Of a stretch of DNA of 64,000 nt, positions 21,401 through 59,500 are shown piece by piece. The notes under the pieces are model-generated. The model saw only the letters and a program-made list of their open reading frames with translations, was not told where the DNA came from and did no database searches. This DNA comes from Asterias amurensis. Taxonomy: Eukaryota > Echinodermata > Asteroidea > Forcipulatida > Asteriidae. How positions within the stretch are numbered: the stretch's first letter is position 1; every line of letters starts with the position of its first letter. Location: contig NC_092648.1 in NCBI RefSeq assembly GCF_032118995.1, positions 20,426,450 through 20,490,449 on the forward strand, in the 5' to 3' direction. The translations under genes and the position numbers were made by a program.

Positions 21401-24400
21401 CTCCCTTGTACATTATTAAGGTATTGATCATAGAGGTGGATGGGATTCCATCCGGTTAATATGTCGTAGACTATAACACAGCCGAGAGAGTGAGCAAAGA
21501 TGGACACTTTGCCGCCATTGGGCTCAAAGCCAGGGTTACGAGAACAGAATATGGAATACAGACGACACATCTGGGTGTGCAGACCCTTGACAATCTGCAA
21601 GAAAAAATTGTAACTAGCAAAGTTTTTTATTGTTTAATTTAGTATTATTATTATTTCATTTCTCTCCACAAGTTTAATAAAATTACAAACAAAAGTGATA
21701 CAAAATAGGCATTCCGCGGGGATCAGCCACCCCTGCTCCGGAGTAGGGGTAAGTAGTAAAACCCTGAGGTATTCTTGAAACGAGCAACCAAAACCCTATG
21801 GAATAGGGACACAGCGTGAAGTGGTTAGGTAACCGATGGGTTAAACAAGTCCTGGGGCTTCGCCAGGGGTAGATATCACAAAGAGTTAGGACAAGTCCTA
21901 CCTAGGAAATATTAAAAGCTTAAGGCTAGTCCTAAGTTAGGACGAGTAAGACGAGTAACTTGTCTTAACTCAAGATAAAACTAGTCTTAACTCTTTGTTT
22001 AATCCACCCCTGGGTTGTATTCCACGGGTATAAGAGTTACAGTGTGAAAAGGGCTAAAAGCTTACCTCTGATCTGTACAACGGGCTGGTGTAGTACAGTA
22101 TATCCATTCCTGTATTATTGAGTACATGACGTAATGACTTGAGCTTCTGGGGTGTGATTGCCGACACCCCTCCACTGTCTAGAGACAGAGAGGAACGCCA
22201 TTCAACCGGGAGGAACTCCACACGCTTTGTACAAGTAGGGCCCTTCAGGTCTGGAAAGTGCTTGTTGATGGTCTTCTCACTTCCTTTCCGTAAGCTGGAG
22301 ACATGGACAATGAAATTAGAGGTATTATACATGGCTGGTAAGAATAAAAAAATTTAAAACCACCACACAGTTGTTCTTCACATTGAGTCAGAAAGCTTAC
22401 TGAAAATTAAGTTTTTACTAGAATTATTTTTCTATGAAATAGTTTCTAATATTTATTAGAAAACTGTATATAAAAACCTAGACAACCTGAAAACTTAAAT
22501 TAAGGACAATTTGCTTGCATGCTGAAAGTTGTGCGTGCTTTTTCACTATTTTATTCCGACTCGCGCAAGTATTAAGCCCAAATTTTCAAAGGTTTTCTAT
22601 TTAGTCAATCACTCACGACACGAACACTATCTGAGCCTGTTCTGTAAGTGTTCACTAATTCTGTATGATATCTTTAAAGACCTGTTTGGACGAAAATGTT
22701 AAGTCGTGAACTTTGCTGAATTCCACTTAAAATGTTTTCCATGAATAGGGAAATCGAGTCATATGATTATAAAAAGGTTTCAATTGTGTAAAAAAACCCA
22801 ATCATTTTGTATGCCCTTATCCACAGCTTTTCTGTGAGATTTGCGAAAAGCCCTGTTACATAATCACTCTCAAAACGTCACACATGTAGTAGATAAAGCC
22901 GCTTTGTTGCAGCGTGGATGTATAACAAAGCAAACTCCCACAAATGACGTCAGCGGCATTTTCCTTTGACGCCCGCTCTCAACGGCAGAAGTGTTTCTAG
23001 TTTTTCAAAAAAACCTTTCGGTAGGGGGCTGATTTTTTAATCGATAATTACAAAAAGTTCAGAAGTGTACACATATCAAAATGACATTAAAATGGTGAAC
23101 AAGTGCATTATAAACAAGTAAAAATACCATTTGTGTTGAAAACATTCCGCTCAGGTAGCTGTTTATACACCTAATTGCCAGGGCCAATTTCATCAAGCTG
23201 ATTAAGCACAAAAAATAGCTTGAGCACAACAAAACTAAATAAATTTAACAGCCACACAAGCATGTCACATTTCTGCTTAGCAGACCTTTCAGCAAGATTC
23301 AGCAAGATTTTCTACATCTCAATGAAATTGGGCCCAAATTCATAAAGCTGCTTAAGCACATAAAGTAGCCAAGCACAACAAAATGATGCTTACCACAATA
23401 AGATTACCAGCCAAAATACCATGCCACACGTACAATCTTTGACCGGTATCCTGCTTATTTTGGCTAAGCAGAAACTGTTTAAGGAATATTTGTGCTTACG
23501 CGGCTCTATGGAATTGGGCACTGATAATAAGGACCTAGTGATTGAATAACTACAAATACTTACTCTGTACAGTTCTTGATGATATTTTGTCGGTCCATTA
23601 TCTGACCAATGCCATGCACTACAAACACAAGATGACTGATGGGTGGAGGTTTGTCGTCTAGACTGGACTCCTCATGGTATCCTCGGATGATCCGATAACC
23701 ACTGGTAGACGCTGTGGGGACAAATGTGTCTGCTTGTAAATATCACAGGGATGAGAGTAGTTTCTCACAAAAAGACCTGAAACTACACATGTAGGATACA
23801 AGTTCTGCTGATGTATGTTGAAATTATGGCTTTTCCACCTGAATGGTAACACCTGGAGTTAAAGATTCCACTGAGCTTTTAGGAACAGTGTTCTCAGCAC
23901 TAGAGAAGTAGATCAAAGAGCAGGATTTTGTTATATTATGTAAAAAGTAACGGCTGATTTTCTTCACCAGGCTGACTTAAAAAGTCTGAATCCAGATAAA
24001 AGTCTGACAAATCTCCTCCCTGATATCAGAGAGACAGCCAAACATCACAAGGCCAGAGACTGCCACCTCAAGGTGAGGGCAACACTTAAGTGTCAGCAGG
24101 GGCACATTGCCAAAAGTGTCAACGTTGCACCACATTGCAACCTACTCCTGGGGCTGAAACAGGGTTACCCCCTTCACAGTCTGTAAGCATGTAGGCAACG
24201 GTATCACCCACTAGAAACCTGACTGGTAAAGCACAATGCACTACCTTCCCAACTTTTAACGTCCGAAGCAATTATTGTTAAATGCCTTGCTCAAGAGCCG
24301 AGTGTCATGACCGGGATTCAAACCCACCCTCTGCTGCTGACAAAATCAGAGATTTGGTCCGATGACCTAGACCGCTGGACCATGGCACGCCAAGGGCGTT

Positions 24401-27400
24401 CCCTTGGATTATTGGGTCAAAGATTGGTTTTTGCCATTTATATTTCTGATATTGAGGCAAAATTAAAAAGAAAGATACAGTAAAAGCCACATGTAAAAGT
24501 TTCAGCTGAATACAGTGTCTGCTTGTTGAGAAAACAGCAACAAAACTTTCATGGTATTTCCACAAGAATGTCAAATCCATTTATGATTAGTGAGGTGACA
24601 GCAGGTACTGACAGCATTTTTGGCCGCAGCATTCGTTAAGTAGTATTTTCTGGACAGTATTTGGACACGTTTGGTGTTATACTCAAAATAACTATAAGCA
24701 TAAAACCTTTCTTGGTAACAAGCAGAGTGCTGTTGATAGTAAAAAACATTGGGAGATATGGCACTTTCTGAAGTAACATGGCTATTGAGAAAGAGGTAAT
24801 TTCTCACTGAAATATTTGAGTCTGAGAAAGACTTCAGGATAAAGGCTGTTCTCAGCCATCTGAAAGCAAACAAATTTGAGCAACAAGAACATTTTTTCTT
24901 TAATTATTTCATGCAACTTTGGAGGCCATTTGGGCTCAAATGTTCACAATTTCTTATTTTCGTGGCTGAGCGGATAAGAGCACCGAATTCAAGCTCTGGT
25001 GATTCTGTTCAGCGGAGTGTGGGTGCGAATCCCGGTCGTGACACTTGTGTCCCTGAGCAAGACACTTCACTGTTATTGCTTTTTTCCACCCAGGGGTAAA
25101 TGGGTACCTGTCAGGGTAGATTTGGTTCTTGTGATGGATTAGCCTTGATTGTGCTACATATTTGGCGGCACAAGCTGTATACTCCCCAGGGAGCTGAGAT
25201 GGTTTAAGGAATGATTTAAGGCCCAGTGACCAGGGGTAATAATGTTGAAGCGCCATGAGTGTCACTGCGTGACGGACCTGCACGCTATATAAGAAGCCAC
25301 TATTGTTATTATTATTGATGTTATGTTGGGATACACCAAGTGAGAATACTGGTCTTTGACAATAACCAATAGTGTCCAATGCCTTTCAGTTCTGATGGTT
25401 GAACCATCAGGGCCAAATTTCATGGCTCTGCATACTGCCGAATTCTGCACTTAGGATCACGATTCCCCACTTACCTGCGAGCGCCGAATTTCTTCGCTAG
25501 CCTTGTAAGCGTAGAATGCCTAGTATTGTGGAGTCTGCACGCGCAGAAGCCAAAGTTTGCCGCTAACCTATGAATTACGCTTGCCGTAAGCACATAATTT
25601 CCTGCTTTTGTAAGCGCTGATTCTGTACTTAAGCAGAGCCATGAAACTGGCCCAGATTGTGAGTTCGAATTTAAAAAAATAAAGCCAATTAACTTGTGAG
25701 TACCTTTAGAGAGACCAATAGTAGTCCCAATGGAGCGGGCAATCCTTGAGCTTTTTGAATTGCTGTATATGAATACATCCTTGATGCTGTTCCAGTCCAC
25801 ATGGTGATCTTTAAACCTCAGTTGCTTCAACACTGAAAACCAAATAATAATTTGTTTTTTAACCTGATCACAGATTGTGTATTCATTAAATTGTTTAATT
25901 TAATTTTAGTAGCCAACAGGCACTATCTTGGTGGTCTAGTTGGTATGACACTGCTTTAGAATTGCAAAGGTCGTGGATCCGAGTCTCACATGCTTAATAT
26001 GACTGTGATTTTAATCCCACAGAACTCAGGTAAAGTACTGAGTATACAGTGCTAACACATTGGTTTATGTGGGTAAAAACCAAAATGAATATTATTTATC
26101 CTGATGCAAATTTAACATCTATTAAATTTCATATTTGTTGATATTAATATGAATGAGGTTATCAGATTTTTTGAAGGAAAACAACTGCCTTAAGGAATAA
26201 ATATATTATTTAGAATAAGAATATAAATTTAAACATTGGGGCTAGGAACAAACGATGATCTGTATGTAGGTACAATACTTGTACATGTATGCTGCATTGA
26301 AAGAAAGTCAAAGACAACTGCGTTGGGGCTGACTTTGTGGAAAGTGACTTTCTGCTTTCATACACTCATCATTTGGTGACCGCTTTTTTACGAGAAATGT
26401 TGAAGATTTTTGCCAATTTCATGAAATCTGAAAAAATCCTCAAAAGTCACGCACCTGCTTTAACAGATTACCACCACGAAATTCCAATAACCATTCCCAA
26501 ACAACAGGATTATTATAAGTGTCTAGTTACCCTGTTTGGCAGCCTTGGTAGGTGGTGCATCTACTGTGGTTTTCTGTCCACCAAACTCGGCAAAGTGTTC
26601 AGTCTCTATCTGGGTAGCAATACTTTCATCTAGAGGTTCTAAATTACATTGATAGAACCAGGTACCCCGCATAACATCCACTGTCTCATCTGTACAAAAT
26701 ACAAAGAAATAAAGGAAGAACGGTACATGAATGAAATGCATAAATGGTGGTCAGTCAGGAAAGAAAAAACAAGTTGAGGTCCAACTTCATGGCTCTGCTT
26801 ACCCAAACCTTTGCGCTTATGACTCCCTGTGTAGCATATGTGAGACAAGTGCAAAATTATTCTGCAAGCTATGCTATAAACTGGGCCCTAACCCTAAGCC
26901 TACCGAGCCATACAGGAAAAAATAACTTTTTGAGATTTTGAAAAAGTTGTCACCATTTTGTGTGATCGACATCTTTACTAGTCTACTTCTTAGCTCATGT
27001 TTTCAGAACTCTCTGTGTTGGCAAAGAGGGTTTTGAAGTGTTTGAGCCTCCGCCAACCAAAGGTGATGTGTCTCAACCTGTAGCAAACTGGGTAAACCCC
27101 TTCTCTTGACAATCACTGGAATCTTTTACAAACCCATGGCTCACCATACAACCTGTAGGACGGAGCAGTGGTTCAAGTGTCTTGCTCATGGACAATAGTC
27201 AAGTGCTATGACTGGGGATCCAAACCCACACTCAGACAACACCTAAACTTGCAGCACTAAACTGCTCGGCCACGACACTCCACAATGGACTACGAAAGCA
27301 CCAACTTATTTTTTAAGCTACATAATCTTTTGGCAGTATGCACTTCCAACTCACCAGACCAATATAAAGCATGGCACTTCTTCTCTAAGATATCCACTTC

Positions 27401-29117
27401 ATACAGCCCTCCCCTCACTAAGATTCTCTCACAGTCTCCATCTTCAGCGTCTCCTTGTTCGTACACCTTCCGGTACTTCCACTCCAACTGGCAGGAATCG
27501 TATCCGATGAACGGTACCCACTTCTTGCTGGAATCGTCCCTGTAGAACCATCTCACTTTGGTAACTTTGAGTTTCTGAACCAAGTCGTCCTCATCACTCT
27601 TGGCACGTCTTGGAGGCGGGGGCCTCGGGGGTGGCTTCTTACTCTTTGGTCTTGTGGAATCATTGTTATTGGCCGTTCCAAGCCCGTCGTTTCTTGTGGA
27701 GCTGCTTGAGTTCTCAGACGGGATATAGGGATTATACGGGGGTGGTCGTCTGTATTCTTCGGGTACATCACGCTCTGGCTGGTCCATAGCCTGGTCAATT
27801 CAAATAAACAAAACATTATTTTAGTCAAACACAGTGGATTGGGAGTGAACTTGTGTTAATATTTATTTTACCTGAGAGTACACATTTATCTAAAAGTATG
27901 CAGCATTTTAAAAAAAAACTTGTTTGGATGTTGTGTTGTGTGAGTCAGAAGAAAATAGTGGAAAAAACATGCACAATTTTCGTATGATATGGGCCATTTT
28001 AGGTTTATTTTTTATAACACACCCTTGTTGCTTTGGATTGGCTTAAACTGGAACCAGAACTTGGGCTTTGTCCATATTTCTCTTCTTTTTACTTGTGGGG
28101 ATGAAAATACAAACAGAAAATAATTCAAATGAGGAGAGCCCCAGTTTTACTGGTTCTACTACTACTATGACTAAACTCTAAATGTCTGCTTGGTCTGGAA
28201 GTAACAATGAACAAGAAGGAAAGAAGGTTCCAAAGGGGTTATTTTGTTTGAAAATATAGTAAGTAGAATTAAACTAAAACAAGACAAAACAATTTTATAT
28301 TATAGGCCCTAAAGAACAAGCAGATATACACATAAGGTTTATCGCGAATAGCAAAATATCAAGAGAGGGCGCTGTTGAACCAACACAAAAGTCAGGCGTT
28401 GCGAGAGCCAGTCGTAGAAACTGCATAGAAACCGCCCCATATTTTCATATTCCTTCCCACATTGCATTGCGTTTCTGATTCGCGATAAACCTTATGGTCT
28501 GTTACCACAAACCAAATATATAAATAAAATAATATTATTATTAAAATCATTACCAATATTATGAATATTATAATGAATAGGGTAGATGGCCTTAGCTTTC
28601 GATCCAATCCGGACCTTCTTCAGAGGCATAAAACAAGTACAAACAAATACATATCCATTTATAGAAAAAGAGATGGGGAAAGGGATTAAGGAAAGGATCC
28701 AGAATTAGACCCAGTAACTGGGGCGCTGTACTCCTTTTAAACAATTTTTGACTTCATCTGTGTTTTAAAAGGAGTACAGCGCCCCAGTTACTGGGTCTAA
28801 TCCAGAATATACATTTTGAGTGTAGCAATGTTCATCAGGTAATTTGTCATTTTCCAAAACTGCAACAATAACTAAAACAATGTTTATCAAATTGTTTACG
28901 CCCAAAACCATGGGAGAAAATAAGGTGGGTGGGCCGGGCTGGGCCAGCATCCGGTATCCAACAAGGATTCCATGGCCGACTGGTGGGCCGGCTAGGAAAT
29001 AATTCTTATTACCTGGTGCATCAGGCCGTAGCTAAATCCTAGGTTTTGCTCTGCCTCCGCCGTGCCGTTGTCACCGTAGCTGCTTTGGTAGGGCGAGTTC
29101 GATGAGGAATTCATCAT
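15435..29117 (-). CDS. DDHD1: Intracellular phosphatidic-acid-preferring phospholipase A1, DDHD1-like (complete, 12 exons)
   Basis: Exons in transcript order: 29117-29013, 27790-27355, 26689-26531, 25832-25704, 23729-23564, 22294-22066, 21594-21329, 20466-20388, 19506-19357, 17906-17684, 16594-16436, 15592-15435. All introns are GT-AG, the phases join, and the total is 752 aa (human DDHD1 is about 900, DDHD2 about 710). After a proline-rich N-terminus, residues 115-230 form the WWE-like region of this family (VRWFYRD, WVPFIGYDS, RGGLYEVDILEKKC, MRGTWFY). The lipase segment holds VVHGIGQIMD and the nucleophile motif AHSLG with Ser444. The DDHD domain ends the protein; D571 (HPADPV), D707 (RVDFEL), H726 (TSH) and D734 are the likely namesake residues. 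No SAM domain lies in between, which favours DDHD1 over DDHD2. The family hydrolyses phosphatidic acid and related phospholipids in the cytosol and at organelle membranes. The start is the first of two adjacent ATGs. Confidence 0.93.
17190..17520 (-). mobile_element. tRNA-derived SINE in a DDHD1 intron
   Basis: On the minus strand the head has GTGGCCGAGCGGGCTAGCAG (A-box-like) and a B-box-like GGATTCAAATCTCGGTCATG. The body carries CCTGTTTCAGCGCCAGG and a tail with GGCCTTGTGATG. It aligns along its whole length with the copy at 24010-24395. It lies between DDHD1 exons 10 and 11, in the same orientation as the gene. Confidence 0.7.
17942..18179. mobile_element. Foldback MITE with GGGCCCAATTTCATAGAGCT termini
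   Basis: The left terminus GGGCCCAATTTCATAGAGCT, followed by GCTAAGCACA, is repeated in inverse at the right (TGTGCTTAGTAGCTCTATGA, then AATTGGGCCC). It is about 238 bp with no coding content. Diverged relatives occur at about 23183-23334, 23329-23521, 25408-25655, 47908-48105 and 53448-53620, and as fragments near 26783 and 40437, so this is one of the most abundant families in the window. Confidence 0.8.
18248..18379. mobile_element. MITE with CACAAAGAG termini, copy 2
   Basis: Termini GGGGTGGATTTCACAAAGAG and, in inverse, CTCTTTGTGAAATCGACCCC. The interior shares TTAGGACTAGCC and CTCCTAGGACTAGTCC with the copy at 14461-14610, inverted relative to it. It lies in the intron between DDHD1 exons 9 and 10. 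Confidence 0.85.
18800..19196 (+). mobile_element. Probable 3' end of a LINE with an (AATG)n tail
   Basis: A T-rich non-coding segment ends TTTTTTAATAAAAATG, directly followed by about nine AATG units (19153-19192). A microsatellite fused to a polyadenylation-like motif is typical of the 3' ends of L2/CR1-like non-LTR retrotransposons. I see no reverse transcriptase, so only the 3' terminus would be present. The assignment rests on the tail structure alone. Confidence 0.4.
21866..22010. mobile_element. MITE with CACAAAGAG termini, copy 3
   Basis: Left end GGGGTAGATATCACAAAGAG, right end CTCTTTGTTTAATCCACCCC. It shares the ACTAGTCTTAACT and TTAGGACGAGTAA cores with copies 1 and 2. It is more diverged, with a short internal duplication of ACGAGTAA. 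It lies in the DDHD1 intron between exons 6 and 7. Confidence 0.8.
23183..23521. mobile_element. Two adjoining diverged GGGCCCAATTTCAT foldback MITEs
   Basis: The first runs from CAGGGCCAATTTCATCAAGC to CAATGAAATTGGGCCC (about 23334). The second starts in the same bases with GGGCCCAAATTCATAAAGC and ends GCTCTATGGAATTGGGC. Sharing of the boundary suggests that one inserted at, or beside, the terminus of the other. They lie in a DDHD1 intron. Confidence 0.7.
24010..24395 (-). mobile_element. tRNA-derived SINE in a DDHD1 intron
   Basis: On the minus strand the head GGCGTGCCATGGTCCAGCGG, the B-box GGTTTGAATCCC and GGTCATGACACTCGGCTC are followed by a body with AACCCTGTTTCAGCCCC and the tail GGCCTTGTGATG. 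It is a full-length partner of the copy at 17190-17520. Confidence 0.75.
24652..25388 (+). mobile_element. Diverged GTACACGTTTGGTAAT-family element split by a SINE
   Basis: The left half (24652-24957) reads GGACACGTTTGGTGTTATAC, with TCTGAAGTAACATGGC and a degenerate central hairpin. The right half (25315-25388) has GGGATACACCAAGTGAGAA and ends AATAGTGTCCAATGCC. A complete SINE (24958-25314) separates them. The element lies in the DDHD1 intron between exons 4 and 5. Confidence 0.65.
24958..25314 (+). mobile_element. Full-length tRNA-derived SINE, best preserved in the window
   Basis: The head CGTGGCTGAGCGGATAAGAG (A-box) and GGTGCGAATCCCGG (B-box) resemble a tRNA of the Leu/Ser class. The body has TACCTGTCAGGGTAGATTTG, and the 3' end CGCTATATAAGAAGCC is followed by an (ATT)n tail. 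It interrupts an older inverted-repeat element, which gives a relative age. Confidence 0.8.
25408..25655. mobile_element. Foldback MITE, GGGCCAATTTCATGGCTCTG type
   Basis: Left end AGGGCCAAATTTCATGGCTC, right end GAGCCATGAAACTGGCCCAG in inverse. The interior consists of short GC-rich motifs (TAAGCGTAGAATGCC, GCCGAATT) that partly pair. It is related to, but distinct from, the copy at 17942-18179. It ends about 50 bp before DDHD1 exon 4. Confidence 0.7.
25918..26070 (+). mobile_element. Second SINE family, copy 1 (tail GAGTATACAGTGCTAACACA)
   Basis: The head GTGGTCTAGTTGGTATGACA and AGGTCGTGGATCCGAGTC resemble tRNA A and B boxes. The 3' end ACTGAGTATACAGTGCTAAC is shared with the minus-strand copy at 48990-49135, and its tail alone occurs at about 21009-21031. 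It is distinct from the CGCTATATAA-tailed family. Confidence 0.6.
27060..27288 (-). mobile_element. tRNA-derived SINE between DDHD1 exons 2 and 3
   Basis: On the minus strand, GTCGTGGCCGAGCAGTTTAG and GGTTTGGATCCCC match the A and B boxes of the main SINE family. GGGGTTTACCCAGTTTGC lies at the tail side. It ends less than 70 bp from the 3' end of exon 2. Confidence 0.65.
28331..28496. mobile_element. MITE with CATAAGGTTTATCGCGAAT termini
   Basis: The 19-bp terminal inverted repeats CATAAGGTTTATCGCGAAT and ATTCGCGATAAACCTTATG are perfect and enclose 128 bp without coding content. It is single-copy in the window and lies in DDHD1 intron 1. The perfect ends suggest a fairly recent insertion. 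Confidence 0.85.
28703..28803. repeat. Perfect 39-bp inverted repeat with a short loop
   Basis: The left arm contains ATTAGACCCAGTAACTGGGG followed by CGCTGTACTCCTTTTAAA. The right arm is its exact reverse complement, with about 22 bp between. Transcribed as part of the DDHD1 first intron, it would give a long perfect hairpin. Confidence 0.85.
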
Positions 29118-30052: not shown

Positions 30053-30164
30053 CGAATCTCGTCACAAGAACAAGATCTTCCTAGAGTAGTAGTAGTAGTA
30101 CTACCTGCAAGTGCAATTAATATTCCAATTGTAGCACTCTCCGAGGACAGCAACCCAAGTCATC

Positions 30165-30428
30165 ATGTGGCCAATACTCATGGCAGGTCTACGTACCTAC
30201 GCCCCCTATGTAACCTTCCCAGTTGCAGTTGTAGTCGGTGCCTTTGGATTCTATATTGAGAGAACGTGGCGAAGTGATAAACAGCCAGGCAGGGCTAGCA
30301 TTGTCGAACAAAGAGAGGAACGACTACTTGCGGCATATGCTGAACAAGATTGTACAAATGTGGACAGTCTCAAGGACAAGAAGGGAATTCCAAGGACAAT
30401 ATTGGACAGAAATCCACTAAGTAAATGA
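30165..30428 (+). CDS. SMIM12: Small integral membrane protein 12
   Basis: An 87-aa protein starting MWPILMAGLRTYAPYVTFPV. Residues 10-32 form one hydrophobic segment with the TYAPYVTFPVA core of vertebrate SMIM12 (92 aa). The charged tail keeps the spaced EQREERLL and SLKDKKGIPRTILDRNP elements (human ends VLNRNRPEKN). The coding sequence is uninterrupted and sits in an exon that opens after CTTGTTCCAG at 30052, so a non-coding 5' exon is expected. It is a single-pass membrane protein; to my knowledge its function is undefined. It is divergent from DDHD1. A candidate AATAAA is at 31118-31123. Confidence 0.9.
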   Translation: MWPILMAGLRTYAPYVTFPVAVVVGAFGFYIERTWRSDKQPGRASIVEQREERLLAAYAEQDCTNVDSLKDKKGIPRTILDRNPLSK

Positions 30429-37945: not shown

Positions 37946-38066
37946 CAAAAGCTACCCCAAGGAAGATTGGTCAGCAGAGCTGTGTCGAGAAGCGGAAAAA
38001 CTCAACCCCAAAAGCTACCCCAAGGAAGATTGGTCGGCTGTGTCCAGAAGCGGAATTACTCAACGC
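37946..38066. repeat. Tandem duplication across the NEK2 stop codon
   Basis: Two copies of a 60-bp block with AAAGCTACCCCAAGGAAGAT (at 37949 and 38011) run into AGAAGCGGAA and CTCAAC. The inner copy ends within the last codons of NEK2 (stop at 38062-38060), so the duplication lies at the start of the 3' UTR and left the reading frame intact. Confidence 0.8.
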
Positions 38067-41000
38067 ATCATGTTCATTAAAAGTTTGCTCTTGTACTTTG
38101 CTGTCTGTTCCTCTTTCTGTAATGCCAGGCTCCTCATCTTGGCCTTATACAATCTATCCTTCAGTTGGGCTGTCTTCCCTACTTCACGCTTCTCTGTTCT
38201 AAGGTTAGGGTCTGTGACCTTCCTCGGTGGTATGTTCTCTTTTCCAGGGGCAAGAGGAGCAAAGTGGACCCTCTTAGGGGTGGTGCCAGGGTGGATTTCG
38301 TCATGGAAGTCTAAGAGATGAAAATGTAAAAAGGTTGGTTAATCTCTTACTAAGTCGCAAATTTTGGATATGTACACGTTGTACATTGTATCATGAAATC
38401 TTTTATAGCCGCAAAGATGACCCGACTGTAATCAATGAAGCAAGTGGTTCTCTAAGGAAGGTATCCAGAAATAAACATTTGTTAACTACCTAACTAAAGT
38501 TTCAAGAAAAATACAGGCGGGGAAAATTAATGTCTTCTCATGTGTCTATTATGATTATGATATTGGTATTAGGATAACTTTTAAAGACCAAATTTGTGCT
38601 GTATCTTTCTGGTCCAACATGCAACAAGCTTAACTTTAAAAAAAAAAAAATGACTAAAGAGCACTTTAAACTTTTCCTGAAATGCATTTATTTGTACAGA
38701 AATAATGTTTCTGACAAAACATTTAAAATTTTCAAAAACAATTTCTTTCAATTGCTGAACCGCGTTAAATATAATTAAATCTGATCACAGTTGGAGGAAC
38801 AATTAGTTTGCTGGTGACATTTATTTTTTGTTCCAGTTGAGCAACTCAAAAGTGGATTTTATCAACATGTGTACAACAAAGTTAACAAGGTTTTTCTCGC
38901 ATTACAATAATATAAACAAATTGGTCATTCAAAATTATGATAAATTGGTTCCATGGGAATTTTGAATGGATCAGCAATAATTTGGCACATTTATATGAAC
39001 ATGCTTATTTTCCTGGTACAAAAATAGTATTAAATACTCTTCTAACATATATATTAAGATTTACTTACTAATATTTCATAAAGATTTTGTGTTAAATTTA
39101 ACAAATAAATAATGAACAACTGGCTACACTTTTATCAAAAATAATGGTTTTGCATACTCAGTATTACAATACATGTACATGATTTTTACAAACATCACAC
39201 AAATGTACAAACACAGTTACTATACTAGAGTTACTTTTGCTAACAAAGGCCATATTTTTGGTCTGTTTGAACAAGTATTAAACAAAGTATAAAGTATCTT
39301 ACTACCTTTAAAAGGAGTATTTTTTACTTATTTTTTTCAAATCAATTCTTTGATACCGATTTAAGCAAATTAATTAGAAGAAAAATACAAACAATTTTGT
39401 ATTACCCCTACAGTACTTTTTGTTTTACTATCTAGCACATGTACTCCATGTTTTTTAACATTATATTTGTCTTCATCATGATTCAATAATATGGAATGTT
39501 GATCACTATATTCCGACATCCCTATGTTTTGATAACCCTATGTTCCGAATTGACACGTTGGGTTAGGGTTTGGAAAAATACACTAGAGTTGTCGGAATAT
39601 AGGGTTGTAACTGTATGGAGTCTACATACACAAATATGCAAAACTAACAGACAACCCTTGATCAAAAAAGGTTATGGAGCTACCGGAGGTTTGTGACACA
39701 CCGGAGGGATGGGTTTTCTCCATTTCCGCAACTCCTCATGAGCCATGGATGAATAATCGGGGACAGTCAACTGACGGACACCCGAACATTTACCTTTCTC
39801 TGTGCGCAGCTCCTTCACTCTATCGTTAAGATTCAGTCTTGTCAACTGGTACTGGCTGAGCATCGTCTCCGCCCTGAGGTAGAAAAACAAACAGATCTTC
39901 ATTTTGGTGAATTTCAGCACCGAGAATTCATTGTCATCTCCTGCAATGTAGCAAGACAATGCAAGCGCTTTCTGTATCGCACCCAAGTTGAAAAGTAAAG
40001 TGCCAACCTTGTCAGTTTTTCGTCAGCCAGTTTCTCCCTGGTAGCCATCCTCTTATCCCTGTTGTCCAGCATCCTGGATCTCTCCTCGAGGTGGTCCTCT
40101 CTCCGTCTTAAGTACTCTTCTCTCTTCTTCAAGGCTTCCTCGCGTTTCTTCATCGCTTCTTCTCGTTTTTCAACAGCCTCGAGTAGCTCCTGATTTTTCT
40201 TTGAAGAATTATCACCGGACTGGCTCGGCTGAGGCTCTTTCTTTGGAACACATTGCACTAGAATTCTTGGATGTTTCAGGATGTCATCAATAGATGGTCT
40301 CAGAACGGCCTAGCAATATTGTAAACAAACAAATTCATAAATACCATTATATTTCGACAAGTTTGTGAGCGAATTCGTTCATTAAAAACATGCTATTCTG
40401 GAACCTAATTTTGTGCAATTAAAATGTGAACATTTTGGCCCAATTTTATAGAGGCTTTTATAGAAGCAGCATTATGAAATTGGGTCCTGGTGCAGGCTTC
40501 ATTTTGTTTACACCGCTACCTTTCTCATTAAATAACTTTTTGCATACCCAATCCGTTGAAACTTGATACAAAGTAATGCGACGGCAAGAGGATGATTATG
40601 CAATTTAACACTCACATTAGTTTTCAGCATTTTTGAGATGAGCTCGTTCAGTTCTGATGAGTATTGAGATGGCAATGGACGGAATTTGCCTTCCTTGATC
40701 TTGAGTGCCAAGTTCTGCTGGTTGATGGCTGTAAATGGCGGGCTGAAAATATGATGGACAAAATCTATTAGTTTGAAACTCACTTGCTAGATGCAAAAGG
40801 TGCGGCACAAAAACAAATTGTAGGTTTCAATGAATTTGTATGAGCAAGTACCAACATTTCTAAACAACAAAAAGACAAGCACTTTTGACATTACTTTGGT
40901 TAATCTGACATTGTTTTACGGCAATCACTACAAACAAATATCACACAAAAAACACTTAAACTTCTATTTGAACTCACCTCAATGAACAAAGCTCATATAT

Positions 41001-44000
41001 AAGGCAACCAAGTGACCACATGTCAGACTTTTCATTGTAGGAACAATGGTTCATTTGCTCCTGAAAAATACAATTTAGAAAATTGAGGAAGTAAAATTAT
41101 GGCATGAAAGTAAACTGCAACACGACTTGGGATGTCTCGAATAACATTTCGTAGTATATTTGAATTGAAAGCTGATTATTGAAATCTTGTTTGTACACAA
41201 ACATCTTCATCTTGTGTGATTTGTCAATGTGGCCATAGTGATGTGATTGATGGATTGATGGTTTAAAATCAACCTTAGCACTTTGTGAAATCCAAGACCT
41301 ATTCATAATGAATAAATAAGGTAAGCTAGGTCATAGCATTAATTACATTGCGGACCAATCAATCACTTCACCTTAGTAGAAACTCAACTGGTCTATCAAA
41401 TGCACCGACAAGGATAGCTTGTATACATGCATCTTTCTGCATCATGCCACAAACTAAAGGCAAGATTTAGCAATTCACATCTAAATGGTGGCATCATACG
41501 CACATGTTGTCATGGGAATTCAATGAGCCAGATTTGTGGGTGCGCATTAGTAGTTGTGATTGTTGAGTGGGGGGGGGGAGCTTAGTGGATTAGGCTAATT
41601 AAAAAAGTCTTGTCTTAATATTGAACTGTTTTCAATCGCCGCATCAAAATAGGACTAATGCAAGACCTTCAAAACTGAAGACTTGAGTTACAACTGTTGG
41701 GAGCCTCCTATTTCAGAGTGTTAAGAATTGTTATTCCAAACCAAAGAGGAGACTTACAGGTGACATGTAGTATGGTGTCCCAACAAATGTCTTGGCAAAG
41801 CTGGTGTCGTGTTGAAGTACCCTGGCCAGGCCGAAATCGCCGAGTTTGACATTGTGAGTTGTGTCCAGGAAGACGTTGGCAGGTTTAAGATCACGATGAA
41901 GGACAGCACTCCCTTTAACCCGCTGTTGACATTCGTGCAGAGCCAATGTGATCTGGCGAAGGATCTTCCAGGCAAAGTCTTCTTCCAGGTATTTCCTGTG
42001 GAAATGACAATCGATAATGAGCTTTTACTTTATCTTGTAGTTTGGTTAAACTTGTATTGAGTTGGAAGTGAACATCAAGAACTCTGAGCACTGTGTTGGC
42101 AACACTTTTAACCAAAGCTGGTACCTTGACAGGGATAAAGGCAGAAACCACTCTTACAAGCAGGACGGTTTAAGTAAAGATACCAAGCAATGCCACACTA
42201 TGTAATGGGTGCCATAACTACCAGACTAATTACAAGAACGCATTTGAGTGGGTGTGTACACACAGCATTTATGTCATTCACACATTAAGTGGGTCAAAGG
42301 CGTATCCAGTACATGCCGCCACTGACCAGTATGTTCAAAAGGCTGGTATGTCAATGTGGCATTATACATGTATGCTCGGTGGGCCAGGATGCCTGTTGAA
42401 TCAATGATAACTATTCAATTCAATTCAATCAAATCAACATCTATTTTCATATTGGTGAAAAAAGGAGAATAATAAACAAAGTACAATTATTTAAGTCAAG
42501 AACAGGTCAAGAAAATTACGAGTGAAAATGAAATGAAAATATGTAATGTAATAGATACGGAGCGAACCAATACGACGGCATTTGATTGCTCTAATATTCT
42601 GAAAAAAATCGAGCTGTAAATACTTTTAAAGGAACACGTTGCCTTGGATCGGTCGAGTTGGTCTTTGAAAAGCGTTTGTAACCGTTTTTTATAAAATGCA
42701 TATGGGTAGAAAGATGTTGTAAAAGTAGAATACAATGATCCACACAAACATGCCTCGAAATTGCGTGGTTTTCCTTGTACCTCGTCGACTAACACGTCGG
42801 CCATTTATGGGGGTCAAAATTTTGACTCCCATAAATGGCCGACCATGTTAGTTCGCACAGTAGAAGGAAAACCACGCAATTTCGAGGCAAACTTGTGTGG
42901 ATCATTGTATTCTACTTTTAAAACATCTTTCCAACCATATGCATTTTATAAAAAACGGTTACAAACGCTTTTGTTTTGACCAACTCGTCCGATCCAAGGC
43001 AACGTGTTCCTTTAAGTATTTACAGCTTTTAAGTATTTACAGCTTGATTTACAAGTTTTAAAAAACTCTGCCACGTGCCACCACCTGTCAGTTTAAGTAA
43101 AATGGTACCAAGCTGGACACGTGTAATGTACAGAGTTGGATTAGATACGAACATTATGTACCCTAAAACTTGGGAGAAATGTGGAGGAAGAATTTCAGCA
43201 GGAAAGTTGTTTTAATAAAGTACCTGTCTCTTCTGCATCGTGAGATGAGACTTCCCAGGTCCCCACCTTCACAGTATTCCATAATGATATAGATAGTGGT
43301 AGAGTTCCGATCTACGATGCGGTCGTAGTAGCGGACAATGAACTCATGACGAAGCTCTCGGAGTAGATTCACCTCAGAGACCAGCATCTGTTTCTCCGTT
43401 TCCGACATGCTGCCATAGTCAATCTCCTTCCAGGCTAGGATCTGTGTGGTACATTACGTGTACATGTATAGAAACAAGTGGATGTTAATCAAAACAGGCC
43501 TGCTTCCTTGCTAATGCAAAAAAAAAAAAAGTGCTTTAAAATTATTGCTTGCTTCAAAGAAATTGTATACTTTTGGTACTTTGGTGAATCCCAACATGTA
43601 TACAAATGGCAAAACCGTCACTTTTTTGGCAAGTCAGTCAGTTGTCTTTGCTTTACTTTAGAATGCCGGTTAACCTGTACCCGCAGTAATTACTCATGTT
43701 ACTACCAAATTAAACTTTAAATATAAACAATAACATAATTTATTATTAAATAGGCCTATCTTTAGGGTTTACTAAAATTATTAGCTAGTTTAGAATTGCA
43801 ATTTTTAATCATAACCCTACATCTACAATCCTCCTGAATGGTTAAAGGAATACGTTGCCTTGGATCGGACGAGTTGGTCTATAAAAAGCGTTTGTAACCG
43901 TTTGTTATAAAATGCATTGGAAAGATTTTTAAAAGTAGAATATAATGATCCACACAAGTATCACTGAAAATTGCACGGTTTTCCTTTTACGTCGCAAACT

Positions 44001-44962
44001 AACCTGGTCGGCCATTTATGGGAGTCAACAACTTGACTCCCATAAATGGCCGACTGTGTTAGTCGGCGAGGTAAAAAGAAAACCACGCAATTTCGAGGCA
44101 TATTTGTGTAGATCATTGTATTCTACTTTTACAACATCTTTCTACCCATTATGCATTTTATAACAAACGGTTACAGAACACTTTTCAAAGACCAACTCGA
44201 CCGATCCAAGGCAACGTGTTCCTTTAAAAGAATATCACAACTATTTTAGAATGGGCCTATATCAGGATAGATCAGCACTTATCCTCTACATAAACAATTT
44301 AGTCCTAGTTTCGCAACTTAACCAAACATTACATAGTGTAGTCCGAACCCTTTTCTCCTTTCAAATTTTAATGGAATTGCCAGTGTAAAAACTATCTTAT
44401 TCAATCTTAGTTAATTCAAGCATACAGTTACAATACAATACAACTCGTGTGACTGATCATGATTTAATTTAATATGATTAATTAACATGATTAAGGCATA
44501 TTTGTTTTAACAAAAATAAACATAAACAATTCCGTATCATGCCACCACTTTTTCACTAAATTTTACAAAAAGGAATAGGCCCCTATCTTCTTTTAAAAGT
44601 TTTAGATGAACAGGTAAATAATAACCCATAATATCTTATTTTATTTTCCATTGCCTCAAAACAAATTGAAACGGTGATGGCAGGATTATATATGGAAACT
44701 TCCCCCCCCCCCCCCAAGCCAAAGTAAGCTGTGGCGTGAAATCCTATGTTTCCTCTGAACCCCGAGGATCCTCACGTCGTCCTTCGACGACTCGAGAAAT
44801 GAAAACGGAAAATAGAATTGGATTTAGAAATAAATAGAACTTAGAAGTGCAAAAAAGAAAACAAACCTTTCCATCACTTTTTCTTCTAATCTTCTTGCAT
44901 TTCCCATACGAACCCGATCCTATGGTGCAGATTACTTCGTAATCACTGATTTTAGTCGGCAT
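38060..44962 (-). CDS. NEK2: Serine/threonine kinase NEK2 (complete, 8 exons)
   Basis: Exons: 44962-44867, 43441-43224, 41995-41758, 41060-40978, 40742-40616, 40309-40008, 39873-39794, 38310-38060; 464 aa (human 445). Phases fit throughout. The kinase domain fills residues 8-270: glycine loop IGSGSYG (14-20), catalytic K37 (ILAWKEID), MEYCEGGD, HRDLKPAN (138-145), DFG (158-160), and TFVGTPYYMSP with T174 in the activation loop. A heptad-like KKREEALKKREE coiled coil follows in exon 6. Exon 8 carries a PP1-docking RVHF (395-398), a KEN degron (405-407) and a terminal Met-Arg, all features of human NEK2A. NEK2 drives centrosome separation and acts in mitosis. Exon 7 can also be read past its donor (GAGAAAG|GTAAAT) to a stop at 39672, giving a 421-aa form without RVHF, KEN or MR. 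It is head to head with ataxin-3. Confidence 0.95.
42611..43042. mobile_element. Large foldback element, copy 1 (NEK2 intron 2)
   Basis: An almost complete palindrome. The left half reads GAGCTGTAAATACTTTTAAA, GGAACACGTTGCCTTGGATC, AATGATCCACACAAACATGC, then GGCCATTTATGGG. The right half repeats these in inverse. The centre at about 42812-42836 is CAAAATTTTG between the two GGCCATTTATGGG arms. There is no transposase. On the right the outermost 18 bp (AAGTATTTACAGCTTTT) are duplicated. Confidence 0.85.
43842..44227. mobile_element. Large foldback element, copy 2 (NEK2 intron 1)
   Basis: Same palindromic design as 42611-43042: TTAAAGGAATACGTTGCCTT at the left, AAGGCAACGTGTTCCTTTAA at the right, and the GGCCATTTATGGGAGTCAA hairpin at the centre (44011-44052). 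It lacks the GAGCTGTAAATACTT extension. The two copies differ by scattered substitutions, so they are probably independent insertions of one family. Confidence 0.85.
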
Positions 44963-48500: not shown

Positions 48501-51500
48501 AGCTGCCAAGTAATTCAAAAATGATAAACAATCAATTGAATGATAATATTGTACAACAGCAGCGTGAGCATTAACATCTTGATTTGTCCTTTTCAAGTGA
48601 AACTTTCCCAACAATGCAAGAAAAAATGGCATTCAGTGGATATGCTGATTCAAGCCATTGTCTAGTCATTTCAAGAGGCTGAAACTGTTAAATTTTTCGT
48701 TGACATATTACAATTTTTTCCTCAGACGCGAGAAAGCTTTTATATGCAACTTCAAGGATCACTGGTTGACCATCAGGAAGATTGGCCGACAGTGGTTTAA
48801 CCTCAACTCATTACTCACAGGCCCAGAGCTCATTTCAGATACATACCTTGCTATGTTTCTTATTCAACTACAAAAAGAAGGTTGGTTTGACCCCCAACTT
48901 CTTCAGGAAAGTTGGCGCTGAACTTTCCTAAGTTTCCACAAACAGATTAGGTTGATACATGTTGTCATTATTGTTTTTCCCCATACACCGATGTGTGTTA
49001 AGCACTGTATACTCAATTACTGTAAAAAAAAATCCACATACATTTATAACTTAGTTGGGATTCAAACCCACAACCTTTGCCATTCAGAAGCCTTATAGCA
49101 GATGCTTTACCACTAAACCCTCCATGTTGTCATGTCTATGGGGTTGGTTTGGCTGCCAAACTAGGGAGAGGGTTTTTGAGAATTCTGAGGTTGGTAGCTA
49201 ATGGGTAAGGAGGTTTCTTCTCCATCAGTATCAATATTTTTTCTGTGACATTATTAAGGGGTTAAGGTAGGCTCAGTGGTTCTTTCCCTGCCTTGCACCT
49301 CTGTGGTCCCTGGTTAGAATCCCGCCTCTGAATGGAGGGAGCATTGTTGTATTTGGATTGGGTTTTCAGTCCTTACAATGGACCTTGATTATTGCGTGGG
49401 TTTTCCCCGTTTTTCGAGGTTCCCTCCCACATCTAAAGTTGTCTATTTCTTCTTGTGTCCTATTCATCCAGTCAACAACATTACTCACATTCAACAGACA
49501 CAATAATTAGGATTAAACAACTTAACAACTATGAAAGAAACGAAGTAGCACAATTTTGTGCTAACAAGAGTAGTTGGTTGAAATGGAGCTTTTTGAAAAA
49601 TAATTTTCTAAAGCAGTTTCACTTTGACACATGAGAGTGATAAATGTCCGTATTTTGTGTAATTTTTGTGTGAATTTGTTTCTGTGACAGGGTACTCATT
49701 GTTTGTAGTCAGAGGCACGCTACCAGATAATGAAGCAGACCAGCTTCTCAATCTCATCCCAGTCATTCAGACGATAAAACCCCGCTTACTGTCCGACCTC
49801 GCCCAGCAACAAACACCAGCGTCAACCTCAACCTCAACGGGGGAATCTTCCTCGGGGAAGAGGTTGGTCAGTCTGGAGGATCTCCATAATGCACTGCAGG
49901 CAAGCCAGAGTTCGGAAGCCAGGGGTACTGCAAGAGGGGAGAGACTGTGCAGTACCCTTAAGAGTGACAACAGTCAAGGTTTAGCTGATGCTATGAAACT
50001 AAGCATGCAAGGTATTAACTGACTCCGCCTCGCTACAGTGGGCAGCGCCGTATCGATACCTCTCATCACTAACCCCTGGTAGGGATGTGCTAAAAAAACA
50101 ATGCTGATTGGCTCCCAAAAGTGATTGCTTTGCCCGTATGGTTGTTAAAAACTTTTGAGCACTTGCATGGTGCTTGTTGGATACAGAGTACCCACGTGTA
50201 ATGTTGGAAATATTTCACGAGATTCCTTTATAATGATCCATGCTTATACACAGTCACCTTAAACAGCATAGAGTAAGACATATCACAAGATCCATTGATG
50301 AATCATAATGAGAGGGGACCAGTTGCTCTTTTGCAGGCTAGTAGCCTGAGGCTACCATACTTGAGGGGACCAGTTGCTCTTTTGCAGGCTAGTAGCCTGA
50401 GGCTACCATACTTGAGGGGACCAGTTGCTCTTTTGCAGGCTAGTAGCCTGAGGCTACCATACTTGAGGGGACCAGTTGCTCTTTTGCAGGCTAGTAGCCT
50501 GAGGCTACCATACTTGAGGGGACCAGTTGCTCTTTTGCAGGCTAGTAGCCTGAGGCTACCATACTTGAGGGGACCAGTTGCTCTTTTGCAGGCTAGTAGC
50601 CTGAGGCTACCATACTTGAGGGGACCAGTTGCTCTTTTGCAGGCTAGTAGCCTGAGGCTACCATACTTGAGGGGACCAGTTGCTCTTTTGCAGGCTAGTA
50701 GCCTGAGGCTACCATACTTGAGGGGACCAGTTGCTCTTTTGCAGGCTAGTAGCCTGAGGCTACCATACTTGAGGGGACCAGTTGCTCTTTTGCAGGCTAG
50801 TAGCCTGAGGCTACCATACTTGAGTGGGCACATACACTGGATTGGCCAAAGGCTTTATTAAAATTCTGACGGATTTTAATGAACCAATTCCAGGGGTTAA
50901 TAAACATGCTTCAAGACAGAAACCGTAATGTAGTTTGTAGTTTTACTGTACTCGCTGCAAATGCCTGGTATAAATACTCATATGTGTGCCCTGCCATTGC
51001 AAGAACAAGCAAAATCAAGAACCAAAGAAAAATATTGTGAAACCATAAACCATCAGACAGTGATGAGAAATTTCAGACCTTTGTATGAATTTAGACTTTG
51101 TAAAGTCTGCATGATAATTCAAAATGCTGTCATTTTCTCATTAAGCTCCTTGGAACTAAACTGCAGGGCATCTCAAAAGGTAGATATGCCATCATTTCAA
51201 TGTACCTCCTAAGATCTGGATCCAAGTTTCAGACTCTTTTTGTAAGCAGCGAATGTAACCCCATCAGACCTGACTAGACTTGTTATTGTAACTGCTTTGA
51301 CTCATGGTTGTTGTTTGTGGATTCTTTTTCCGTGAAGGAATGGGAGACCCTAGCGTAGATGAGAAAGTAGATCCTGAAGACCTTCGGAGAAAAAGACAAG
51401 CATTCTTTGACAGGTAATTTATTAATTAATGAGCATATTGTTTGCTTTTGTTTGTCAATCTCATGTGGAAAAACTGGATTTTGTGAAACACTCGGTACAG

Positions 51501-56576: not shown

Positions 56577-59500
56577 TTATACTTCTATACGTATATCTGT
56601 CTCCTTCACATCATACTTCAGTTTAGGTTTCTCTGTCCTGGTGTGCCAAACATAAATCTGCAAAATACAAAATATATTTACAACGGTTAAAAACCTTGAT
56701 GTGATTGCAAGAGATATATGTGGATGCAGAATCGGAAAATGCTCTTTCAAATTTAAAATATAGCTGTGAACTGAAAACAGTTAATTTGAAGACCAGTGCT
56801 CTGGTAAGTGGCTTTCTTTAAAATTGAATTTATACAAAACAATATTTCTTATTTTTATAATTCAACAATGTTGGTCTGAAAAGTGTTGAAACACTTAGGA
56901 AGAAACATTAATGCGTAGCTTATCATTGAAGATCTGTTCACTACTAGTTCAATATCATTTAAATTGAGCTAATTTACTAAATTTAAATGATGGTATTGAA
57001 AGTAGGAGTGAACAGATCTTCAATGATAAGTTAACTGTTAGCAAGTAATAAGTGAAATTGTTTACAAAGGAAAAAAGAAAGACATTTGAAAATTGCTAAC
57101 ACAATGCTTTGCTGACTTTATGGAAGAATTAAAAAATACCTCAAATAATTGTTGAATGATGAATATGAAAAACAGAGGCAACTTACTTTTGTACACATAT
57201 CAGCTTTTGGTTCCAAATCCTCCATTTTGATCAAATTCACCAGCAGAGAAGACTCCAAGTATCCTCGTTTTGCTTTCAAGTCAAACTTCGCAAATGGTTT
57301 CTCCTGCAATAACTTGAGATTGATGGCGAATCCTGCCATGTCCATAGGATAGGGTCGTGCAGGTTCCCAGCCCACATTAAAGCCAATTATTTGCCCTGTT
57401 TTCTTATCTACTCTCGGGCTTTCATACATCTGTCCTCCTACAAGACCCACTGGCCACATGGAGACTTTTTGAGTGTCTCTCATCTGAAATTAACAAATCA
57501 GAACAATAAAATAAGTATATAAAGTAATTATATTGGAGGCTTGCATCTTGTCCTGGCTGTTTTTGTAGTGAAGTTGTTTTTGTTTCAAACACTTTATGTT
57601 TTTATATTTCTAATGAGTCAAACTGAGTGCATTCTATACTTCAATGCACATCAAACATTGAAATGTTGCAAACTTTGGAGTTTTTGGCAGATCAATGACT
57701 GTCTCAGTAAGGCATTTCTTCAAGATTTTAAGACATTACAACCAGTGGTGCCACCAGACCTGTTCATATGGGGGGGGGGGAGGGGGTGAAGAAGAGGCAA
57801 CTCTTCTGACAATGATGGAATTACACCACTGTTATTCCTAAGCTAGGGTAATGCAAATAATATCAATTAATATGGTGCAATTGTTTTGGGTTAAAAATGT
57901 CAAACATACCTCATCAAATATTTGAAGACCATAGGTGTTATCGTCGTCAGCAAAATAAACAACCCCAGGATTCTTAGTAGCGTCCACATTCTTTAATAAC
58001 CACTCGATGGCAGTATTCCTTTGCTCGACACCTCTTGGCTTCAGCCAGTTGGGGTCATTCTTACCCAACTTGTACTGTTCTGGCGTCTTGAAATTCAAAT
58101 GTGTGTACTTCATGCCGCTGTTTTTCAAAAAGTTGATAACGAGACTGGATTTTCTGTTTGCATCTTCCACAACGATCCAGTGGAAATTTCTCACATGGAG
58201 GAACGACTGTGCTATCCTGGTCAACTCCGCTTTCTGTACAGGTCTTGTATGGGTGGGTGTAACGGCATAGATTGTAGGTAGGCTCTTATTTCTGGGGTTG
58301 ATACTGTCTGTGATTTCTCCCACGGCATCGGGATACTGTTGACGGAGACGGACGGCAAGACCTTGTAGATTTTTCCTGTCTTCTTTGAGTTGTTGTTCGG
58401 TATCATGAAGGAATGTCTGTTTTTCTTTGTAGTCCTGATTAATGGCATGCATGAGGTATGGATGCTTGTGGTTTCCACCACTGCTCCCCATTTGAGTACA
58501 TAACGAATCTAACAAAAACATTGCGGATAAAAAGAAACAAACAATATGATTTTTGAATGTCAGTAGTGAAATCAACATACCCTTAGGAAATTGTGTTCAA
58601 AAATGGCAAGTAATGTTTTACTGTAAATTTTCAAATATTTTTGTTTTCTTTCTTAATCATAGACCTACTCTATAGCTTACCTAAGTTTCTTTAAATACAT
58701 ACATCTTTAATGGCCTCAGGAACCTAAGCCTACCCCTAGAACTAAAGAGGTTAGTTCTGCTATAGTCATGTCTCCTCGTGTAGATTACAGCGGAACGAAC
58801 CTCATAGTTCTTCTAGGAGTAGCAAAAATACCCATTTGACCATTTTCCAGTACAGTCAGGCCATGGTCCTAGTTGGCTTGAGACAGAGATGACTTGGATC
58901 ATAGTTGCAATAAACTTAATCCTCCATCCTCCTGACCGCCGAAGACTGGCGGACCATCGGGAGGATTATCGCAACTAGGACCATAGAGGCTCTGACCAAG
59001 TTGACTTGGGTCTTGGGAACCAAGACATAAGTTGGCTTGGCCCTTGGAAACAACATGACTTCTGACTGAGTTAGCATGCATTGGGCAGAACATGGAGGAA
59101 GGAAGTACCTGCTCATGACAGTGGAACAATTAATTCTTATAATCTTACCAAGTTGTGAAAAAAAAATAATAAAAAAAAATCAATAAATTTCAAACACAAA
59201 CTCCAGAGTCTCACTCTCCTCATTCTGTAAGTAACACTCACTCCAAGACTACTCCTAACTATAATGAGATTTGTTCAGCTATCTTCTCAGAAAAAGTTCC
59301 TGTATATGGCCACCACTTTTTCATTCGATATGAAACAATACAGTATCTAATTTACCCAAGTAAATGAGATATCCCTTTTTGTAAAAACTAGTGAAAAAGT
59401 GGTGGCGCCATACGGAAAATTATCCCTCGTCTCCACGAAGTGATGACGATAGCTGAACGAGCCTCATCATAGCTCTAAGTACTGTAGGGACTAGGAGTAA

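Follow-up and report, generated by a model that had tools for sequence, protein, structure and literature searches.

A NEK2 gene of the starfish Asterias amurensis with a NEK2A-type C-terminus and an open reading frame into its last intron

We find that the minus strand of the window, by which we mean the whole 64,000-nt stretch of DNA analyzed (C1:20426450-20490449), contains a complete NEK2 gene of 8 coding exons at 44962-38060. Judged from its sequence, the gene is an ordinary animal NEK2 orthologue, and its predicted main product is of the degradable NEK2A type. An open reading frame continues from exon 7 into the last coding intron, which raises the question of a second, NEK2B-like ending. 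We consider it probable that this is an ordinary NEK2A-producing gene, the last intron of which merely begins with an open, G+C-rich stretch. On that explanation the open extension would be mostly incidental to the start of the intron, and not a selected coding tail.

In the gene model, which was rebuilt by hand, coding starts with the ATG at 44962, and exon 1 (44867..44962) matches human NEK2 from residue 1. It is followed by exon 2 (43224..43441), exon 3 (41758..41995), exon 4 (40978..41060), exon 5 (40616..40742), exon 6 (40008..40309), which holds the end of the kinase domain and a coiled-coil-like region, exon 7 (39794..39873), which is common to both possible endings, and exon 8 (38060..38310), which holds the NEK2A-type C-terminus and the stop codon and matches human NEK2 over KVHF and KEN. 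All seven introns are GT-AG, and the normal, fully spliced product is 464 aa long. Exon 7 measures 80 nt, is entered in phase 2 and is linked in phase 1 to exon 8, which starts at 38310, across the 1483 nt of the last coding intron (intron 7, 38311..39793). The product has a Pfam Pkinase match of 221.7 bits, and its top match in PDB is full-length human NEK2 (E 1.2e-141). Other kinases in PDB are further off, the nearest being NEK1 (2.5e-55), with NEK7 at ~1e-48; in this search the kinase domain is nearest to NEK2 among the NEKs with solved structures. NEK2 also appears to be single-copy, since close exon matches fall at one locus and other kinases match at E 1e-20 or weaker. Among the 91 of 206 candidates scored in the genome (491.5 Mb, 23 contigs), the exon matches, 85-100% identical except for one that runs past exon 7, lie at the NEK2 locus only, and the next-best match is a 35% identical kinase (E 1.0e-20). 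Intron 1 harbors a ~390-nt element (43842-44229) that matches on both strands in an inverted-repeat-like manner and reads as MITE-type, with at least 40 further copies at 91-94% identity (40 of 5535 candidates scored), and a stretch of intron 2 resembles this element by eye.

Other features of the window lie outside NEK2. Pfam identifies a UPF0767 family protein at 30135-30428, which is presumably SMIM12-like, a minus-strand exon of glycosyltransferase family 43 at 57838-58596 and, likewise on the minus strand, a WWE domain exon at 27290-27799. An exon at 21319-21633, for which Pfam gave no family, looks DDHD-phospholipase-like. At 50312-50824, about 10 identical copies of a 51-nt unit form an array with long open frames on both strands. 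The exon upstream of this array resembles ataxin-3, but Pfam assigned it to no family. No Rfam family reached its gathering score in the window.

The A-type tail of the predicted protein is complete, with [RK]VxF, KEN and a terminal MR present in the order of NEK2A. The PP1-binding motif RVHF (residues 395-398; 38261..38272) and the KEN box (residues 405-407; 38234..38242) are pattern matches that align with human KVHF and with human KEN at 391-393, respectively, and the terminal Met-Arg (residues 463-464; 38063..38068) follows from the gene model as well as from a pattern match. An in-phase splice from exon 7 to exon 8 that yields RVHF, KEN and the terminal Met-Arg had been proposed in an earlier, sequence-only reading, and our rebuilt model reproduces it. 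The protein resembles human NEK2A (445 aa) in the kinase domain, the C-terminal region, the KVHF/RVHF, KEN and terminal MR motifs and their order, and differs from it in length (464 aa) and in residue-level changes; binding to PP1 and the APC/C is here predicted from the motifs. A terminal MR is also given for human NEK2A in an excerpt of PMC4729826. From the NEK2A stop codon into the 3′UTR, an imperfect tandem duplication of ~60 nt is present at 37946-38064, with blocks of 30 nt (97%) and 28 nt (89%).

If the exon 7 donor (39794/39793) is left unused, conceptual translation continues as GKCSGVRQLTVPDYSSMAHEELRKWRKPIPPVCHKPPVAP and then meets the TAA at 39674-39672, which adds 40 residues; translation thus bears out the 40-codon open frame to a stop at 39672 noted earlier. 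This read-through extension, the candidate NEK2B-like tail, covers 122 nt including the TAA (39672..39793). The conceptual short form would be 421 aa long, the same as the long product through exon 7 and different thereafter, and would not contain RVHF, KEN or the terminal MR. It had been described as a kinase lacking the PP1 site and both APC/C signals, and the loss of these three motifs stands, but three RxxL (D-box-like) matches would stay in the short form, including RLNL of exon 7 (residues 367-370; 39828..39839), itself a match to the pattern only. The description of the donor as strong holds likewise in part: GAGAAAG/GTAAAT agrees with 8 of 9 consensus positions and ties for best with donors 4 and 5 among the seven donors of the gene, but position +5 is A and not the consensus G. 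The weakest NEK2 donor, AAG/GTTGGC with 6 of 9 consensus positions, belongs to exon 6 (region 39874-40309); the shortest intron (134 nt) follows it, and read-through there is open for 31 codons.

The comparison with vertebrate isoforms turns on the position of the last intron. The first residue after exon 7 (382) aligns with human residue 371 at moderate confidence (posterior ~0.7, with small gaps on either side), and human residue 371 is what we take to be the point where NEK2A, NEK2B and NEK2C part. On this alignment the intron, and with it the possibility of a truncated product, is probably older than the divergence of the two lineages. The layout is then shared because the intron is shared; that both lineages use it does not follow. 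Like vertebrate NEK2B (human and Xenopus), the candidate short form would lack the PP1 site, KEN and MR, and it would diverge at residue 382, the one aligned at moderate confidence with human 371. Their tails differ, with ~14 residues in human NEK2B and 40 here, and show no evident similarity except for a Gly, which is uninformative because any phase-1 G/GT donor gives Gly. The variation of human NEK2C presumably concerns the same exon junction. In the starfish gene, an in-frame alternative acceptor of the NEK2C kind is absent from the start of exon 8: no in-frame AG occurs in the first 70 nt, the AGs present there ending 38 and 40 nt in. NEK2C is described in an excerpt of PMC8999480 as a third human splice form with 8 aa missing from the C-terminus.

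Human NEK2B is described as a more stable splice form without both degrons and the PP1 site (excerpts of PMC4729826 and PMC8999480), although the second of these also states that NEK2B is degraded in G1. An excerpt of PMC2018689 has NEK2B lasting into late mitosis, and reports that NEK2A itself escapes degradation in the early mouse embryo. Because NEK2B persists and mouse-embryo NEK2A is reportedly undegraded, the contrast between NEK2A and NEK2B need not hold in every egg. For Xenopus, Nek2B is named as a maternal component that is recruited to the embryo's first centrosome (excerpt of PMC12270485; title cited in PMC2018689). The titles and abstract openings of the papers listed on Nek2 in sea urchin, starfish and Patiria, and on NIMA-related kinase isoforms in echinoderms, describe no echinoderm NEK2 isoforms, those of the papers listed on Nek2B splicing, the Xenopus or zygotic centrosome and polyadenylation state no intron or poly-A mechanism for vertebrate Nek2B, and excerpts of PMC8779408 and PMC6556028 contain nothing on the exon boundary of NEK2 isoforms.

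The length of the open frame does not set intron 7 apart, since other NEK2 introns stay open for 40, 35 and 31 codons. Past donors 1 to 7 the frame is open for 40, 20, 8, 1, 35, 31 and 40 codons, respectively, and we therefore rejected open length as coding evidence on account of introns 1, 5 and 6. Stretches open for 40 codons or longer begin at 268 of 3305 positions (8.1%) in NEK2 introns 1-6 and at 11746 of 91778 positions (12.8%) in sampled non-coding DNA, which was drawn from the surroundings of 40 kinase exons together with NEK2 introns 1-6. Among G/GTRART sites in the window, the NEK2 donor included, 3 of 26 remain open over 40 codons when read in the same phase. For 20 donor-like sites in the non-coding set, 7 of 60 frame tests gave at least 40 open codons, and one site of the 20 had a G+C content of at least 0.508.

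Base composition is the one positive sign of coding constraint on the extension. Its G+C content is 0.508, against 0.292 in the remainder of intron 7, and a value as high is found in 6.4% of non-coding windows of 122 nt (n = 1553) and in 30% of coding windows (n = 320); within NEK2 introns 1-6 it is reached in 45 of 3293 windows. When an open frame of 40 codons is demanded as well, 2147 of 91778 non-coding positions (2.3%) qualify. The fall in G+C along intron 7 is larger than in 500 of 500 permutations, and each of the other six NEK2 introns shows a weaker change. The best break lies at nt 281 of the intron, with a plausible range of nt 111-306 that spans the stop at nt 122.

Codon usage of the extension is neutral to unfavorable. 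The codon model was trained on 40 of 136 Pkinase matches (7792 codons, loci L003-L042) with the NEK2 exons held out, and the non-coding set comprised 101,618 bases from the flanks of the kinase matches, with the open frame and 60 nt removed, and from NEK2 introns 1-6, in which unannotated exons may remain. The extension scores 0.007 and its other two frames 0.099 and 0.022, while NEK2 exons 1-7, which were held out, reach 0.201 overall and range between -0.152 and 0.518 in 40-codon pieces. A score as low as that of the extension is seen in 8% of 330 kinase segments, a comparison set that is the training set itself, and a score as high in 19% of 8082 non-coding open segments, or 56% when these are matched for G+C. 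The synonymous-only score (-0.033) is lower than that of every 40-codon piece of NEK2 exons 1-7; 13% of the kinase segments, again the training set, score as low. Among non-coding segments with an open frame, 34% score at least as high, and among the 1167 of them matched for G+C the share is 87%. These tests are weak because the extension has 40 codons, and we do no more than lean against coding constraint.

The part of intron 7 beyond the TAA would form the 3′UTR of the putative short form, and two AATAAA motifs are found in it, at 38820..38825 and 38687..38692. Downstream of the second, within 60 nt, lies a T-rich run, and this motif would be the better candidate for intronic polyadenylation. 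Poly-A ends immediately below 39672, as expected in the sequence-only reading, are at odds with these positions: the motifs sit 846 and 979 nt beyond the stop. Two AATAAA motifs are observed in intron 7 against 2.46 expected by shuffling, and NEK2 intron 1 also has two. A stop without a downstream exon junction does not trigger exon-junction-dependent decay, so provided that the mRNA has no exon after exon 8, a transcript with intron 7 retained should escape that decay, and intronic polyadenylation is then not needed for the short form; we suggest that such an mRNA could end at the ordinary poly-A site. The putative short-form 3′UTR has no TTTTAT and no TTTTAAT, one TTTTAAAT and one Pumilio-like TGTANATA, and in the 560 nt downstream of the NEK2A stop there is one TTTTTAT, which contains TTTTAT, together with two Pumilio-like TGTANATA. 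Going by cytoplasmic-polyadenylation and Pumilio-like motifs, the short form is therefore not singled out as maternal. Intron 7 also carries a short repeat, dispersed or in tandem, with inverted arms of 19 nt (39506..39602), whose core of ~43 nt has ~100 short matches among those listed, often in tandem and on many chromosomes.

We favor the reading of an ordinary NEK2A-producing gene, and on this reading the last coding intron separates the coiled-coil-like region from the regulatory tail, apparently in its ancestral position. If intron 7 were kept, the ribosome would read 40 residues into it and stop, to give a kinase without the PP1 site, the KEN box and the Met-Arg tail. Some short protein, presumably at a low level, may appear when splicing is incomplete, because the retained transcript should, with exon 8 as the last exon, escape decay. 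Last-intron retention and intronic polyadenylation in general yield C-terminally truncated proteins, and NEK2 here would likewise be truncated by reading into the intron, in its case as a potential only. Any last intron that precedes signals of this kind would, if retained, produce the same layout, and the layout alone therefore does not imply, as had been argued, an ancient or repeatedly evolved choice between a degradable and a stable form. What may be ancient is the option of truncation at the last intron.

The main alternative is a regulated NEK2B-like isoform, for which intron 7 would be kept, or an intronic poly-A site, the better candidate being 38692, would be used before splicing, in some cells, perhaps the oocyte or early embryo. 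The result would be a more stable kinase that neither binds PP1 through RVHF nor engages the APC/C through KEN or MR. We regard it as possible, if doubtful. Consistent with such an isoform are the alignment of the truncation point with human 371, the presumed human isoform boundary, the removal of RVHF, KEN and MR by read-through, a donor without the +5 G, the AATAAA at 38692 with its T-rich run and the high G+C of the extension, as well as the greater stability of human NEK2B without both degrons (excerpt of PMC4729826) and the place of Xenopus Nek2B as a maternal centrosome component (excerpt of PMC12270485). The codon usage of the extension argues against it, as do the AATAAA motifs, which are no commoner than expected and equally numerous in intron 1, and the maternal-type 3′UTR motifs, which do not favor the short form over the NEK2A 3′UTR. 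Of the NEK2A/NEK2B interpretation as first put forward, the NEK2 identity, the A-type tail, the loss of motifs on read-through and the moderately confident alignment of the junction with human 371 hold; a short form that exists or is chosen is not borne out by frame length, codons or AATAAA number. The fuller proposal of a NEK2B-like form that is regulated by last-intron retention or intronic polyadenylation, probably maternal, at an intron shared with vertebrates, we hold to be tentative and rather unlikely.

We find it quite improbable that the extension is a relic, either of a formerly longer exon 7 or of decayed coding DNA captured from elsewhere, although this would explain a high G+C (0.51) without present coding constraint. 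A weak likeness to nicotinamide N-methyltransferase (E 0.11 over 36 residues) would fit a captured piece, but Pfam gave no family for the extension and the likeness was dropped. The NNMT piece finds only the extension (E 2.4), and no NNMT-family member was found in the genome in an insensitive search without initial candidates. PDB holds no significant relative of the extension. In the genome it matches only itself at a significant score, as protein and as DNA, and its only other look-alike (C2:30243883, E 3.3) has no family and no PDB match, returned itself and one match at E 6 when searched again, and was taken as chance. No retrocopy or paralogue with the tail is present among the candidates scored, and since the extension matches only its own place, the genome offers no retrocopy that could document a transcript. 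The viral contig collection gave no match, and the prokaryote collection gave one, on a bacterial contig; it spans query residues 13-106, the coiled-coil-like part, and leaves the tail uncovered. That the G+C-rich stretch regulates splicing by helping to define exon 7, with the open frame as a side effect, is very improbable, for although the stretch adjoins a donor without the +5 G and differs in composition from the remaining intron 7, no unusual RNA structure was detected near the end of exon 7 (z 0.15).

The outcome is a clean NEK2 gene model, with the second ending as a possibility read from the sequence. Echinoderm eggs are classic material for work on centrosomes and the cell cycle. If the NEK2B-like form were real, the choice of a degradable or a stable NEK2 would be older than the split of echinoderms and chordates, or would have arisen twice at one ancestral intron. 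Should echinoderms produce both forms by way of the same intron as vertebrates, the A/B switch would count as an old component of the passage from egg to embryo.
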